From: a virus
Length of the DNA: 22,497 bases
IMG/VR virus record: IMGVR_UViG_3300031224_000048
Location: 1 to 22,497 of that record
Strand: one strand, 5' to 3'
The translations under genes and the position numbers were made by a program. Shown piece after piece: positions 1,290-20,672 of the stretch (positions are counted from its first letter, which is position 1; each line of letters begins with the position of its first letter). The notes below the pieces were generated by a model. It was not told where the DNA came from, did no database searches, and saw only the letters and a program-made list of their open reading frames with translations.

Positions 1290-1380
1290 TTTTTACCGCA
1301 TTGGTAAATACAAAATTGCATAGCTGTTAGGCTTTCAATGGTTCATTAAGACGAGAGTTCGAATCTCTCCGAGTCCACTA

Positions 1381-1398
1381 AGAATAACATTTTAATAT
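1381..1398 (+). other. Intervening segment between tmRNA acceptor and coding pieces
   Basis: An AT-only-like 18-nt spacer separates the acceptor 3' end (discriminator A1377 plus CTA) from the 5' end of the coding piece (G1399). In known permuted tmRNAs such a segment is removed by tRNA-type processing (RNase P at the 5' side, 3' trimming and CCA addition). Here removal is inferred from position only. Confidence 0.6.
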
Positions 1399-1457
1399 GG
1401 GCTCGACTGGCATTGATTAGTGAGTATGATTTGATAGTTAGGATATGTGATACTTTA

Positions 1458-1514
1458 ACGGACAACGTTAGACAATTAAACCCTAATCATGTTGCTCTAA
1501 GAGCAGCTGCATAA
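1458..1514 (+). other. tmRNA tag reading frame
   Basis: Read back from the TAA at 1512, the frame gives NPNHVALRAAA, preceded by TDNVRQL, without an upstream stop in this segment. The C-terminal hydrophobic/alanine ending is what ClpXP-type proteases read in SsrA tags, although the usual ending is LAA rather than AAA. The resume codon cannot be fixed by eye. A TAACG/CGTTA hairpin (1456-1470) sits just upstream of CAA TTA AAC and could mark the region before the true first codon, so the tag may be 11 to 18 residues. Confidence 0.6.
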
Positions 1515-1570
1515 GGTAAGACATCGGAGGGCATCTTCAAATAGCCCTCCCCCTTTAGGGGGTTAAAAAA

Positions 1571-1770: not shown

Positions 1771-1823
1771 AAACCCAAAGCTGGTTGCTTTCTTATTTGC
1801 TTATTGTTGGTTGTTATTTGTTG

Positions 1824-1856
1824 AAAGGCTAGTCAATCGTTGACTAGCTTTTTTTC
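1824..1856 (+). terminator. Rho-independent terminator after the RNA region
   Basis: GCTAGTCAA (1828-1836) and TTGACTAGC (1840-1848) form a perfect 9-bp stem with loop TCG. It is extended by A-T pairs and one G-U, and followed by seven T residues. It ends the tmRNA transcript and separates it from the structural genes. Confidence 0.9.
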
Positions 1857-4900: not shown

Positions 4901-5139
4901 TCATGTTCCAATACAGAATGACTGATGCTCTAGGTAATCCAAGTGGCGTCAGTGGTAATACGATGAATAGCCAATTTGAATACACTAAAAAAATAGGCTT
5001 TGATCTTTTAATTTCAGGCAAGAAGTTTACATTTGACGTTAACATAAACGCTAAATTTAGACCAACAACTGCATCAAATACTAGCTTAGGTATTCAACCA
5101 ACAACTTCTATTAATGCAACGCAAGCAAACATAATTTAA
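1939..5139 (+). CDS. Large tail/baseplate structural protein with FnIII-like domain
   Basis: 1066 residues, starting at ATG 1939 after an A/T-rich leader without a Shine-Dalgarno sequence. A charged, heptad-like coiled coil is visible around residues 403-460. It is followed at about 486-630 by a beta-rich segment opening KYRVRGFWPIQRDIP and running to an SDWSDLVRVDFP stretch, which has the feel of a fibronectin type III domain. A second helical segment (about 690-720) precedes a beta-rich C-terminus. No signal peptide, membrane span or enzyme motif is evident. Size, domain make-up and the adjoining collagen-motif protein suggest a baseplate or tail fibre component on the virion surface. The exact T4 counterpart cannot be named from sequence alone. 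Confidence 0.6.
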   Translation: MNDNSLTAQLENVNLYHANIVKLANGYMQALTTQESEISVALENKDGGITNVLIPSNIALSNKLQRLLQSFDNLSGLTENQSALVAQDGSFREIFVTSHRKSLPSVMASDIDMASDVKLSTNTIIESLLSPLTEVELTLSADYQKTRQTRVTKLFVTDGDMSTFSDGMSYSEAKRILATGDFVWTEQEYDKLNQATQARYSGDFNVTSSVATANDTVLVTLESLRYNDSLNVVEQSKRLDVGDALTTKDGSVRISIQSINAKSDVLTCIYDAGIGSILTGEAQLSILSTEESKAIIRIPVRLKEQSIIFISPINDQTGFASSKSTAKLFIADNFTVVQAGETFRFNEFFSSKVADVGRYFESIVRESLIPANLGQTPTKPTLIAQDFEVVQINAHLTNSPTTEKLRKIQKEKDVITSQIEVLNSSIFTLTSKIAQGNYSTVSKRENDVSKRTAIINDKMQKTSLLGSLVGDINTLLKNTSEQASISPKYRVRGFWPIQRDIPSDITDPQKIVQYQARFRYVSNVGNSANATQLVYTDGENKVSASFTPWTTVKTEPLNRVVDKDGNSKWSINSPSDSDQSNINQLDVAIQYGESVEFQVKAMSEAGWPVAPVMSDWSDLVRVDFPVELLQESDTAAIARKNTEDALTVRVQQEFNNQGITEHLAGSFREQEKFFAHEAKRIASGYVTNEQTTISMFEYTSLLENRIKLLEELVDRRYATVSVQLVDEDLRTYDVNNFSTVKLFAGYYTEEVDLTEQSNWGSIVTKQFYLRLMNRNAQTVELLSITPGSLNQNVDNAAYDKSALLISGSNEVIDQKQGQIFYNRATNINGDADLYLATGGESSTLVSPADIDTTAVDSAKNVIQLDGGLVENFKLLSSAALNGYVAMTNLHPAYLEYRAQQDITILQTEFDRIKHFNSLYREVMVQNAKSNDLIIGFKQDDKYLVGQNTVGAAAYVDLNSLSSYQVEGIDSSASKQIFSGEQDSILIPIMFQYRMTDALGNPSGVSGNTMNSQFEYTKKIGFDLLISGKKFTFDVNINAKFRPTTASNTSLGIQPTTSINATQANII

Positions 5140-5159
5140 CACGACAATAAGTAAAAAAT

Positions 5160-7547
5160 ATGAAAGATTTAACATCTTCCGGTTTAGTTTTACGAACACT
5201 AGACGCATCAGATTGGCCAAAATTTGTTGAAGACATGAACTTTAATTTGACTCAAATTTTAAATCTACCTGGGTTTAAAGGTCAGCCTGGTTTATCTGTA
5301 ACAGGACCAGCCGGTGTTGGTATTAGAGGATCAAAATGGGTTTTCGTGAAAATGTCAGACATGCAAAATGTTTACAATATTACAGATGCTTCTGAAGTTG
5401 ACTTAGCGTTTATAAATCAATCATTTGACAATGACTCTGCTCTATTGTTTTCTTCTCTTGACATACCTAGCGACGATGAATTAATTATTGGTGATCTTTT
5501 AGTTTTGCCAGAAGGTCAAATCATAGAATTGTCAGAAGTCGTTAACGGCAACCAAACAACAGTCCAGTTTACAGACACTGGTGTAACATTTGCTCAAGTT
5601 TCATCTTTATCAGAATCTAGAGTTCGTGCAATTTTTAATGAATTGTTTCAAGGCGGCAACCAAACAAACGGTTCGTTTAGAAACTATGCTGCGGTGGCCA
5701 AAAATAACACTGATGCAAGCCCAGCAGTCAATCAAAATATTAACAATGACTCTATTATTGACATATTGGTTAGCAGTTCTGGCCCAGGCGCTGCATTACC
5801 GACACATAAATTTGTTGCTGCAACTGAACAAGATGTAACAACAGACACTCAAATGTGTTTGATAGCTGGATCACCAGTTAGATATCATGAATTGTTACAA
5901 GAAACTCAACGAATACACACTAATAACTATGCACCAGGCATAGACGACTTTGCTGCCCAAGTTATATTGCAAAACTCATACAAAAATGGACTTATTTTTG
6001 GTCACAGAAACTCAGAATCTATACGACAATTTGGTCGACTGTATCGTTCTGTTAATTCAACGATATTAACAAGTTCATATTCACCATTAGAAAATGAATA
6101 CTCAGATATTCAACTAAGCGATGATGCGGTAACAATACGAGCAAACAGAGGTGTTATTAGAACGACTTCTCTTGAAATCATGGCTGGTGTCCTAACATCT
6201 GAATTTCTTTCTTGGTCTGGTAACACAGTAAAACTAGCAAACAAGGCAAACGCAAAGTTAGAAATTTGGGCACCAGAAGGCACATATTTAAAATCAATTG
6301 TAGATGCAAATGTATTGTCAACCGATGCAACAGGTAAACTAATTAAAGCATACACAGTCCTAACTGCTATGCCGACAACTGCAACAAATTCTCAACTACT
6401 AACAGCATTGGCCGTTGCTAATTATAGAATTGCAGTTAATACTAGACTGGATGCATTAGAATCGGATGTAACTGATCTACAAAATCAAGACACATCAACA
6501 TATTTTAAGAAAACTGTTTGGTATGCGTCTGCTACTAACCTAAATAGCATTACTGTTCATGGTAACAGCCTCGTTGCTATAGGTACTGCAATTTCTAATT
6601 TCTTGCCTAATGTAACAGCTGCACCAGCAGACATGCATATCAACACTTTTGTCATTGACAATGGTGGCACAAAAAATAGAATGTTGCAAGAAGTAACAAT
6701 GACTGGCGGCACACTAGGTAACTACATGCTTGGTGTTAAATGGTTTAGGACTGCTGAAAAGGCAGGTACTGCACAATGGCAATTTTCTGCATGGTCTAAA
6801 ACAGTCACCAACATAGATGTTCCAACTGGAGACTCAGCGATTGTTGTATCTGGTTCTTTTGCAGATGAATTAAGAATTAGACATGCAGGAACAACTGCAA
6901 CGTCAACAAACAATGTACAGCCGACCGAGGCAGTCAAAAACATTACATTGGATGAATTTGGTCACGTCAGACGTATTGATTCTGAAGACTATGCTAATGT
7001 TTTCTTAGGTATTAATGGGCCAGTTAGCCAATTGCATTGGTCTGCAACAAATCAAACAGCACTAAGCATATATCTTTCAGAGTTTATGCGAATAAATAGA
7101 CCAATGGTTGTTGTAACAGGAACGTTTGATATTTATGACGGTCAAACTACAACTTGGGTGTCATTAGGACAATATACAGCAACGAACTCTTCGTTTGATG
7201 CTGTAGGACCCGGTCATACTGTTATAAAAAGTCTAGTTAAATGGAAAAGAACAAGCCTAGGTGGTCACTATGATTTCGTAGATATTGAAATATACCCTGA
7301 CGCTTCTGCAACAGCAGCAGAACGAGTAACATGGAATGATTTACAAGTTATTGCACTACTTACAGTTAGAGAAGGCAGTGCTGATAGAGAACCAATATTT
7401 GCACCACAAGAAACAAGAGCAGTAGTCACAGGTTCAGTTAGCGGATCAACTGTTAGAAGATTTGCACTTCATGAAGGTAACGGACCTGTTCAAGAAGTTT
7501 CATTAAAAATAGTTGTACAACGAAGAAGAACGTATTTACCTTTATAG
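5160..7547 (+). CDS. Putative tail fibre/adhesin protein with short collagen-like motif
   Basis: 795 residues beginning 20 nt after the previous stop. Near the N-terminus (about residues 38-58) is a Gly-rich run, GFKGQPGLSVTGPAGVGIRG, in a roughly Gly-X-Y pattern, as found at trimerising joints of phage fibres. The N-terminal 35 residues (DWPKFVEDMNFNLTQIL) look like an attachment helix. The rest is Ser/Thr/Asn-rich and beta-prone, without catalytic motifs, typical of fibre shafts and tips. It closely follows the large structural gene, so the two are probably co-transcribed and assembled together. Receptor-binding function is inferred from composition and context, and a baseplate-proximal structural role is the alternative. 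Confidence 0.6.
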   Translation: MKDLTSSGLVLRTLDASDWPKFVEDMNFNLTQILNLPGFKGQPGLSVTGPAGVGIRGSKWVFVKMSDMQNVYNITDASEVDLAFINQSFDNDSALLFSSLDIPSDDELIIGDLLVLPEGQIIELSEVVNGNQTTVQFTDTGVTFAQVSSLSESRVRAIFNELFQGGNQTNGSFRNYAAVAKNNTDASPAVNQNINNDSIIDILVSSSGPGAALPTHKFVAATEQDVTTDTQMCLIAGSPVRYHELLQETQRIHTNNYAPGIDDFAAQVILQNSYKNGLIFGHRNSESIRQFGRLYRSVNSTILTSSYSPLENEYSDIQLSDDAVTIRANRGVIRTTSLEIMAGVLTSEFLSWSGNTVKLANKANAKLEIWAPEGTYLKSIVDANVLSTDATGKLIKAYTVLTAMPTTATNSQLLTALAVANYRIAVNTRLDALESDVTDLQNQDTSTYFKKTVWYASATNLNSITVHGNSLVAIGTAISNFLPNVTAAPADMHINTFVIDNGGTKNRMLQEVTMTGGTLGNYMLGVKWFRTAEKAGTAQWQFSAWSKTVTNIDVPTGDSAIVVSGSFADELRIRHAGTTATSTNNVQPTEAVKNITLDEFGHVRRIDSEDYANVFLGINGPVSQLHWSATNQTALSIYLSEFMRINRPMVVVTGTFDIYDGQTTTWVSLGQYTATNSSFDAVGPGHTVIKSLVKWKRTSLGGHYDFVDIEIYPDASATAAERVTWNDLQVIALLTVREGSADREPIFAPQETRAVVTGSVSGSTVRRFALHEGNGPVQEVSLKIVVQRRRTYLPL

Positions 7548-16667: not shown

Positions 16668-16880
16668 ATGAAAAATTTAAAAGAATTCACAATTGAAAGC
16701 TTAGCTGACATTGAAGAGTCAGTAACAAAAAAGCCCGGTGTAAAAAAGCCCGGTGTAAAAAAGCCCGGTGTAAAAAAGCCTGAAAGTAAAGCTAAAAAAT
16801 ACGCTAAGAGTAAAGCTAAATCGGCAGGTAAATCGATTGGTAATTTTGCTAAGTCATTAGCAAACGACAGTCACGTATAA
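16668..16880 (+). CDS. Small Lys-rich protein with VKKPG tandem repeats
   Basis: 70 residues. The N-terminal 19 residues (MKNLKEFTIESLADIEESV) form an acidic amphipathic helix. Residues 20-38 are KKPG followed by VKKPG repeats, then a Lys/Ala/Ser-rich tail (ESKAKKYAKSKAKSAGKS). The composition resembles histone H1-type tails or phage internal head proteins that bind DNA or RNA. The N-terminal helix resembles small prohead-core type peptides, although this is a weak impression. It lies between sheath and the frameshift gene pair. Function is unknown, and nucleic-acid or capsid/tail assembly binding is inferred from charge. Confidence 0.65.
   Translation: MKNLKEFTIESLADIEESVTKKPGVKKPGVKKPGVKKPESKAKKYAKSKAKSAGKSIGNFAKSLANDSHV
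16725..16784 (+). repeat. 15-bp tandem repeat encoding KKPGV units
   Basis: Units with the sequence GTAAAAAAGCCCGGT begin at 16740 and 16755. A close copy (ACA instead of GTA) precedes them at 16725, and a decayed copy ending in CCTGAA starts at 16770. The near identity at nucleotide level indicates recent expansion by slippage within the coding frame. Confidence 0.9.
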
Positions 16881-16899
16881 CAAAATAATATCATACTAG

Positions 16900-17124
16900 A
16901 TGAAGAAAATTAGTGTAATTTTAGAAAGTCAAACTCAGGCTATAATAATTGAACGCATTAGTACTGCAAAGCAATTTACTGCTTTTGTCCACGAAAAGCT
17001 AAAACTAACTAAAGGCTATACTGAAACTAGTGCTAGAATGATTGCCGAAGACTTGTTAGACATGTATCCTGACAATTTCAAAAAGGCTGCTGCCAGTTTA
17101 GCAAATTTTCAGATGGGCAGCTAG
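16900..17124 (+). CDS. Putative tail assembly chaperone, upstream frame (frameshift partner 1)
   Basis: 74 residues from ATG 16900. The first half (KKISVILESQTQAIIIERIS) is strand-like and the second half is helical (TETSARMIAEDLLDMYPDNFKKAAASLANF). It is not recognised by motif. Near its end lie a slippery AAATTTT heptamer (17103-17109) and a GC-rich hairpin whose loop contains its stop codon. A -1 shift at codon 70 would join it to the downstream frame, giving about 217 residues. A short and a long product from one start is the hallmark of G/GT-type tail assembly chaperones, and the tail gene neighbourhood fits. Such genes usually lie between tube and tape measure; here they precede the tube. 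Confidence 0.6.
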   Translation: MKKISVILESQTQAIIIERISTAKQFTAFVHEKLKLTKGYTETSARMIAEDLLDMYPDNFKKAAASLANFQMGS

Positions 17125-17139
17125 AATTGCAGGCTGCCC
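17103..17139 (+). promoter_or_regulatory. Programmed -1 ribosomal frameshift signal
   Basis: Heptamer A_AAT_TTT (17103-17109) is in the correct phase of the upstream frame. After a 5-nt spacer (CAGAT), GGGCAGC (17115-17121) pairs perfectly with GCTGCCC (17133-17139) around an 11-nt loop that includes the upstream stop codon TAG. The 7-bp, six-GC stem stands out in this AT-rich DNA. A -1 slip enters the downstream frame, which is open from 17073 and lacks an ATG for over 100 nt. Confidence 0.8.
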
Positions 17140-17552
17140 TAAATACAGAAAATTGTCTACCTATCGAAAGCGATCCCGAAATGCTTGGTACATTCACGCA
17201 TTTAGATGCGATAAGTGGATTTGTTAAACTATACGATGCTTGGTTGTCAGAAAATTCTGAAACTTGGCATAGTAAAGAACTTAAAAAGTCTCTTGACTCT
17301 ATTGTTAAGTATATTGATCAACTGGCATCATACATTTCAGTTGCACATAACGAAATAGAAATTCAAGTCAACGTTGATAGTGCTGCCCTAACGGGCAAGC
17401 AATTTGCTACTATTATTAAGAGAACAGAAGAGTGGAAAGCACTAAAGAAATGGTTAAAGACGGAAATGGCACTAAACAATCAGCCAGTATCAGTAGAAGC
17501 AATAGTTAGATGTATTATTGCAGAGACTAAAAAGTTTGTTAAGAAAGTCTAA
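17127..17552 (+). CDS. Putative tail assembly chaperone, downstream frame (frameshift partner 2)
   Basis: The frame is open from 17073 to the stop at 17552. Within it the first possible starts are TTG 17127 and ATG 17180, neither with a leader resembling its neighbours. In-frame codons before TTG 17127 (SDGQLE) read as plausible protein, so it is best explained as the extension of the upstream gene through the -1 frameshift (joined at 17109). The extension is about 147 residues, largely helical, with charged segments such as SKELKKSLDSIVKYIDQL and KRTEEWKALKKWLKTEM. There is no recognised catalytic motif. If translated alone from TTG it would be 141 residues. The tail tube gene follows. Confidence 0.65.
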   Translation: MQAALNTENCLPIESDPEMLGTFTHLDAISGFVKLYDAWLSENSETWHSKELKKSLDSIVKYIDQLASYISVAHNEIEIQVNVDSAALTGKQFATIIKRTEEWKALKKWLKTEMALNNQPVSVEAIVRCIIAETKKFVKKV

Positions 17553-17597
17553 GTATATATACACTAAATAATAAACAACAATAAAAAACACAAATAT

Positions 17598-20084: not shown

Positions 20085-20672
20085 ATGATTAAGAACGATA
20101 TAATACTTTTCGGTAAACCTGGCGCAGGTAAAGGCACATTGGCTAAATTAATAACTAAAGGTGACACTGCAGTTTATCATCTTTCAACCGGTGACCTGTT
20201 TAGACAAAACATGACAGCTAAGTCAAAACTAGGTATAGAAATTGATGCAGTTATGAAATCAGGTGAATTGGTTGACGATGAATTAACAATAGCAGTTGTT
20301 GAAGATTGGCTAATTAACAGTAATAAGCATGAATTCATAATTTTTGATGGCTTTCCTAGAACAGAAAGACAACTAGATTGGCTTTTGCAGTTCTATGTCG
20401 ATCTGGATATGACATTCCCTATTATGTTTGAACTTGAAGTTGAAGACACAACAGCAATGTCAAGAATTAGCAAACGCGCAATGAATGAACAGCGACCAGA
20501 AGACATGACTGAAAAGTCTAAGTCAAATAGAATTCGTGCATACGAAAAACAAACTGCAGATATAAAGGATAAGTTTATGGAAACTGTTGATAGTCCATGC
20601 TATACGCTACAGGTTGACAACTTAGAGCCTCAAAAAGTATACCGCGAGTTTATGAAAACTATAACTATTTAA
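20085..20672 (+). CDS. adk: Adenylate kinase
   Basis: 195 residues. It interconverts ATP + AMP with 2 ADP, so it would adjust nucleotide pools during infection. P-loop GKPGAGKGT is at 10-18, the AMP-site segment HLSTGDLFR at 32-40 and DGFPRT at 88-93. The lid region is short, with arginines in SKRAMNEQRPEDM and NRIRAYEKQT, and no zinc cysteines, so it is the short-lid type. The C-terminal region (YTLQVDNLEPQKVYREFMK) fits the family's last strand and helix. It is a metabolic gene inside a tail-assembly cluster, between the gp26-like genes and the tape measure, with a terminator before it and a candidate promoter after it, suggesting later insertion or separate control. Confidence 0.92.
   Translation: MIKNDIILFGKPGAGKGTLAKLITKGDTAVYHLSTGDLFRQNMTAKSKLGIEIDAVMKSGELVDDELTIAVVEDWLINSNKHEFIIFDGFPRTERQLDWLLQFYVDLDMTFPIMFELEVEDTTAMSRISKRAMNEQRPEDMTEKSKSNRIRAYEKQTADIKDKFMETVDSPCYTLQVDNLEPQKVYREFMKTITI

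Follow-up and report, generated by a model that had tools for sequence, protein, structure and literature searches.

A predicted two-piece (circularly permuted) tmRNA gene among the late genes of a PTm1-related myovirus

The noncoding block and its features

The window, i.e., the whole stretch of 22,497 nucleotides that was analyzed, is a 22.5-kb IMG/VR virus record filled with T4-type myovirus late genes, including those for the large terminase subunit, the tail sheath, an endolysin, and a 1066-amino-acid protein of phrog_29329. A longer sister contig carries, upstream, the T4-type prohead protease and the Gp23 capsid protein. Between an open reading frame ending at 1112 and another starting at 1939, the window contains 826 noncoding bases. 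A preliminary description had placed in this block, at 1292-1568, a circularly permuted tmRNA gene with its acceptor half upstream and its tag-coding half downstream, and had assigned it to a phage late region. The late structural myovirus genes on both sides agree with this assignment, and the order of the halves follows from the coordinates and from the alignment to the Rfam family RF04321. The range itself held in part: 1321-1514 forms the tmRNA core, while the outer parts, 1292-1320 and 1515-1568, contain local hairpins only. The features of the block are listed below.

1321..1331, plus strand: P3-like strand of the acceptor piece, in the place of the first stems of the RF04321 model; weak pairing with 1430-1440 (11 pairs, five of them G-U)
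1342..1349, plus strand: 3' strand of P2, TTCATTAA, in the acceptor piece; 8 of 8 pairs with 1417-1424, with compensating changes
1353..1369, plus strand: T-arm GAGAG-TTCGAAT-CTCTC, by sequence and RF04321 alignment (stem strands 1353-1357 and 1365-1369, T-loop TTCGAAT)
1370..1377, plus strand: 3' strand of the acceptor stem, CGAGTCC (1370-1376), and discriminator A73 (1377)
1378..1398, plus strand: intervening sequence separating the two pieces and predicted to be cut out, judged by known permuted-tmRNA processing and the RF04321 position
1399..1405, plus strand: 5' strand of the acceptor stem, GGGCTCG, holding G3; the coding piece is expected to begin here, by pairing and RF04321 alignment
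1406..1416, plus strand: D-loop analogue ACTGGCATTGA, by its conserved TGG and position
1417..1424, plus strand: 5' strand of P2, TTAGTGAG, pairing with 1342-1349
1430..1440, plus strand: P3-like strand of the coding piece, TTTGATAGTTA, pairing with 1321-1331
1451..1466, plus strand: resume region around ACTTTAACGGACAAC, with the predicted resume codon GAC at 1461-1463; also found, in register with the tag frame, in the tmRNA of Mosig-like phages
1461..1514, plus strand: tag reading frame DNVRQLNPNHVALRAAA, by translation; predicted start, stop codon TAA read directly at 1512-1514
1526..1562, plus strand: a pair of hairpins following the tag, first GGAGGGC/GCCCTCC and next a C/G-rich one; fold of −18.1 kcal/mol, z −1.8
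1823..1853, plus strand: strong hairpin with a T-run, likely the terminator of the whole noncoding block (z −5.4, 0 of 200 shuffles)

The acceptor stem is complete, as had been claimed: all seven pairs form between 1370-1376 and 1399-1405, among them the G3-U70 pair. The bases following A73 are CTA, hence CCA is not encoded. The two halves are joined by P2, in which two of the eight pairs are G-U. In other phage members the D-loop analogue reads ACTGGNNTTGA, and the start of the D-loop and P2 in the window, UUGAU as opposed to the usual UUCGAC, counts against a regular tmRNA.

The tag frame consists of 17 open codons with an alanine-rich C-terminus, ...NHVALRAAA, followed by TAA. The window sequence ACTTTAACGGACAAC recurs as ACTTTAAAGGACAAA in contigs of the L119 type, and we predict the tag to be (Ala-)DNVRQLNPNHVALRAAA because GAC lies in the tag frame in both, the resume codon thus being placed by comparison with one relative. 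When 2.9 million viral contigs were searched with the pattern GACTGGNNTTGAT...CTTTAANGGACAA, only the sister contig and five L119-type contigs were found. On the other side, a tag ending in RAAA is unusual, and the stem that RF04321 has before the resume codon, in the place of PK1, is unpaired in the window. The hairpins at 1526-1562 are a possible 3' structure of the coding piece, the 3' end of which may lie near 1563 or further on.

Some other elements of the block were noted. The stretch 1332-1342, which adjoins P2 in the acceptor piece, is perfectly complementary over 11 bp to 1689-1699, 175 bases after the tag; this candidate for a tie of the acceptor piece was dropped, as 37 of 400 shuffles gave equally long complementarity, which is perhaps due to chance. 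Just upstream of the tmRNA, at 1263-1279, is a T-arm-like TGAGG-TTCGACT-CCTCA with the only GGTTCGANTCC of the window, possibly a decayed tRNA. A second tRNA or permuted tRNA starting from this element was rejected, since its CTAAGGA strand had no full partner by eye and no tRNA was called. Between the tmRNA and the terminator, at 1567-1770, there is a structured RNA with no Rfam match. It has a closing stem of 8-10 bp at 1573-1686 and a candidate H-type pseudoknot made of 1723-1731/1745-1753 (9 bp) and 1736-1743/1760-1767 (8 bp); an equally strong pseudoknot arose in one of 500 shuffles. Upstream of the whole block, the 369-amino-acid open reading frame at 3-1112 has no Pfam or PHROG match. 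Among the loci compared, the sister contig alone has a relative of it, and in PTm1 a neck protein is encoded in this place.

Model matches and covariation

The whole window was scanned with cmscan against 4227 Rfam families. RF04321 (tmRNA_permuted, a merger of the alpha, beta, and cyano tmRNA families) matched at 1322-1514 with 51.1 bits and an E-value of 1.6e-7 (3.7e-11 when this model alone was searched), and was the sole match at or above its curated cut-off. The alignment spans the full model, 1-213, yet the gene is low-scoring for the family, with a small margin of about 4 bits over the gathering cut-off of 47 bits. Of the separate permuted models that had been suggested for this check, RF01850 (beta_tmRNA) matched the tRNA-like part alone with 35.1 bits, below its cut-off of 84, and no match to the alpha and cyano models was reported in the window. 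The standard tmRNA model RF00023 reached only 17 bits. ARAGORN, the other program suggested, called neither a tmRNA nor a tRNA in the window, and it likewise missed other phage loci that are positive by the covariance model. With DNA patterns for permuted tmRNAs, 36 viral records were found, 35 of which exceed the RF04321 cut-off, and several go uncalled by ARAGORN (e.g., L118, L120, L121, L122, L125, and L126, with L122 being a short, end-cut locus); the missing call thus reflects the tool, which is weak at detecting this kind of gene. As a consequence, phage genome surveys based on ARAGORN miss them.

The same gene is present on a second contig, IMGVR 3300031223_000027 (32 kb), which differs from the window at two positions in 11,136 bases and at none within 1292-1568. 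To assess covariation, 22 distinct permuted tmRNAs were compared, i.e., that of the window and those of other viral contigs. The acceptor pairs 4-6 are C-G, U-A, and C-G in the window and G-C, A-U, and U-A in most phage members, and P2 begins with U-A, U-A, and A-U where most others have C-G, A-U, and G-C or G-U. Compensating double changes thus affect three acceptor pairs and most P2 pairs, with acceptor pairs 1-3 and 7 and partly 4 and 6 carrying no weight in the other sequences, where they were fixed by the search patterns. This covariation extends across phage lineages, and the phage's own clade holds only the near-identical copy of the second contig. The preliminary description would have been overturned by a lack of both a significant model hit and of covarying acceptor, T-arm, and P2 pairings in related phages; the hit is significant and the acceptor and P2 pairings covary across phages, although within its own clade the gene has no second, divergent member.

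The carrier phage and the alternatives

By the homology of its late proteins, the carrier is a jumbo myovirus akin to the Tenacibaculum phage PTm1. PTm1 and PTm5 are its closest isolated relatives (58% identity for the terminase, 49% for the sheath, and 46% for the 1066-amino-acid protein), followed by pT24, PAU, and Chryseobacterium phage MA9V and, more distantly, by the Prevotella Lak phages. Homologous terminase, sheath, and baseplate-region proteins and the lack of SD motifs place the phage in the PTm1-like group. Under a strict count, the ATG is preceded by GGAG or GAGG in 0 of the 29 genes of the window and of the DNA extending it upstream, compared to 0 of 36 genes in the PTm1/pT24/PAU/MA9V set and 12 of 41 genes in Mosig-like DNA. 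The absence of SD sequences is natural for mRNAs of Bacteroidota (PMC6847099). Based on the relatives and the missing SD motifs, the host is probably a member of Bacteroidota; it may also be an alphaproteobacterium, as PAU is recorded from Sphingomonas, which belongs to that class.

No RF04321 match above the cut-off was found in more than 70 related phage records, many of which are fragments and of which PTm1, PTm5, pT24, PAU, MA9V-1, and Lak-A1 were scanned as complete genomes. PTm1 and PTm5 gave no match above the cut-off to either form of tmRNA, and where the window has its 826-base block they have just 37 bases. The gene was not found at the same site in any of the relatives, where at most 266 bases separate the neighboring genes, and in a blastn search no phage sequence matched the noncoding block as a whole. 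Since the relatives have no such gene and little room for it, the block is best read as an insertion in the lineage of the window phage. The one hit above the cut-off in one of these scans (L111; G057 contig C120, 864-1059, minus strand; 73.7 bits) falls outside the phage records, on another contig of a MAG labelled Clostridia, reflecting either misbinning or an unexpected carrier. A scan of genome contigs returned a Clostridia MAG contig only and gave no clue to the host.

The upstream half could in principle belong to an ordinary class II tRNA, as its 3' half, and have met a chance partner downstream: an unrelated phage has a genuine tRNA with an exact copy of the 26 bases GAGAGTTCGAATCTCTCCGAGTCCAC, paired there with GGACTCG. 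In the window, however, no GGACTCG-like 5' half is present upstream and no tRNA is called, and the acceptor half was rejected as an ordinary tRNA for the absence of that 5' half. Instead, the downstream strand supplies the G3-U70 pair, the UGG, and, correctly spaced, an 8-bp P2. When 1378-1470 was dinucleotide-shuffled while the upstream strands were left unchanged, 10 of 20,000 shuffles offered a 7-bp partner for the acceptor strand together with an 8-bp partner for P2 in a suitable place, a test in which the T-arm, A73, UGG, and the tag were left uncounted. In view of the RF04321 match and P2, we regard a plain tRNA as very unlikely. We attach similarly little credence to a bacterial gene misassembled onto a phage contig or to the trace of an integration into a host tmRNA gene. 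The absence of the block from the closest relatives would fit such an origin, but the two contigs agree throughout the block, which is flanked by late phage genes on either side, and a one-off assembly error is unlikely because the second contig carries the same gene. Both halves of the gene are present, so that it is no fragment, and its best relatives are phage genes.

The divergent D-loop and mRNA-like region and the low model score would also suit a decayed tmRNA, or one reduced to its tRNA-like domain, that acts as a non-tagging decoy by binding SmpB and inhibiting the host tmRNA. The tmRNA-like domain of mycobacteriophage DS6A is a precedent (PMC4131195, PMC11915505), but the DS6A form has no coding part at all, while the window has an open 17-codon tag frame with an alanine-rich end and a stop codon, and a resume region in common with an intact relative. 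The two contigs show no differences within the gene. The open frame and the resume signal make the decoy reading the less likely one, and we consider it improbable. Taken together, the significant covariance-model match, the pairings compensated with respect to other phage permuted tmRNAs, and the location among myovirus late genes argue for what was originally proposed, and the locus is very probably a two-piece (circularly permuted) tmRNA gene that is carried by a large phage and acts in trans-translation.

Relatives of the gene and its possible role

Phage tmRNAs of both the one-piece and the two-piece type are already known (PMC4131195, PMC9004378, PMC11915505), as are huge phages with tmRNA and SmpB (PMC7162821). 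Of 53 two-piece structures counted previously, 50 came from marine or aquatic phages (PMC9004378). The nearest tmRNA to that of the window is the one of the Mosig-like SAR11 phages. Pelagibacter phage Mosig has SsrA annotated in its record and scores 93.6 bits with RF04321; the L119-type phages are close to it (83% for the ssDNA-binding protein), and the Mosig-like phage tmRNA is called independently by ARAGORN. Mosig, the Mosig-like L119 and L130, and the OM43 phage Melnitz have the same permuted order, G3-U70 pair, and T-arm as the window (PMC9004378). With L119, the window shares 23 identical bases around the T-arm as well as GACTGGNATTGATT and ACTTTAANGGACAA around the resume codon, the latter in the same register. 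In contrast to the Mosig group, the window belongs to another phage lineage and probably to another host phylum, its acceptor pairs 4-6 and P2 are replaced by compensating changes, its predicted tag is DNVRQLNPNHVALRAAA, CTA stands in place of CCA, and no riboswitch match is found near the gene. Since the nearest tmRNA is in Mosig-like SAR11 phages, the comparison suggests transfer between phages.

Permuted order as in the window was also seen in phages with no or almost no SD motifs, namely L121/L172/L173 and L174. The L173 tmRNA is 74% identical to that of the window over 74 bases. L121 differs from the window in its tag, ANDKFALAA, and in being located beside a cluster of 11 tRNAs, and no terminase homologous to that of the window was found in its record. 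These sequences suggest permuted tmRNAs in further Bacteroidota-type phages, and the two SD-less groups, with their permuted tmRNAs or candidates, may be part of a wider pattern.

By established tmRNA biology, the parts of a two-piece tmRNA imply RNase P and 3' processing, CCA addition, alanine charging, and the use of SmpB. In the window, the noncoding block would be transcribed as a single precursor, which RNase P would cleave before G1399, while the acceptor piece would be finished after A1377 by 3' processing and the CCA-adding enzyme. The two pieces would be held together by the acceptor stem and P2, perhaps also by P3, charged with alanine by alanyl-tRNA synthetase through G3-U70, and admitted to stalled ribosomes with the SmpB of the host. 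Translation would then resume at GAC1461, and a tag with the end ALRAAA would be added to the nascent chain and mark it for proteolysis. In infected cells, ribosomes would in this way be freed from broken mRNAs, which is the most likely benefit late in infection.

In published lists, the clades with permuted tmRNA are for the most part Alpha- and Betaproteobacteria and Cyanobacteria (PMC11915505), and the tmRNA of Bacteroidota themselves is presumed to be of the one-piece type. What is new here is the carrier. Unusual are its lineage, a probable mismatch with the tmRNA form of the host, which the preliminary description did not mention, and the sign of transfer from DNA like that of SAR11 phages. 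The gene probably reached a jumbo phage of Bacteroidota from a different lineage of phages with kinship to SAR11 myophages, and we lean slightly towards the view that a two-piece tmRNA moved between phages and is used in one-piece Bacteroidota hosts, with the SmpB and proteases of the host serving the phage form. If so, an infected cell would hold both gene forms and two different tags, and permuted tmRNAs may travel with phages across host phyla, untied to bacteria having that form. Such a phage would provide a natural test of whether a two-piece tmRNA is accepted by the processing enzymes, alanyl-tRNA synthetase, and SmpB of a host that has the one-piece form, and of the gain that a phage has from carrying its own ribosome-rescue RNA.

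Two observations concern other genes of this phage DNA. A phage adenylate kinase and thymidylate kinase (Pfam ADK, Thymidylate_kin) are encoded at 20085-20672 of the window and at 16938-17555 of the sister DNA (L029), which also encodes a prohead protease (Peptidase_S77) at 5098-6759. Many small proteins have the N-terminus MKSLSTHITESF or a similar one in common, i.e., one at 16668-16880 of the window and several in L029 (at 3280, 3872, 13493, 14644, 14922, 16156, and 16500), and these N-termini resemble the capsid-targeting sequences of T4 internal head proteins.
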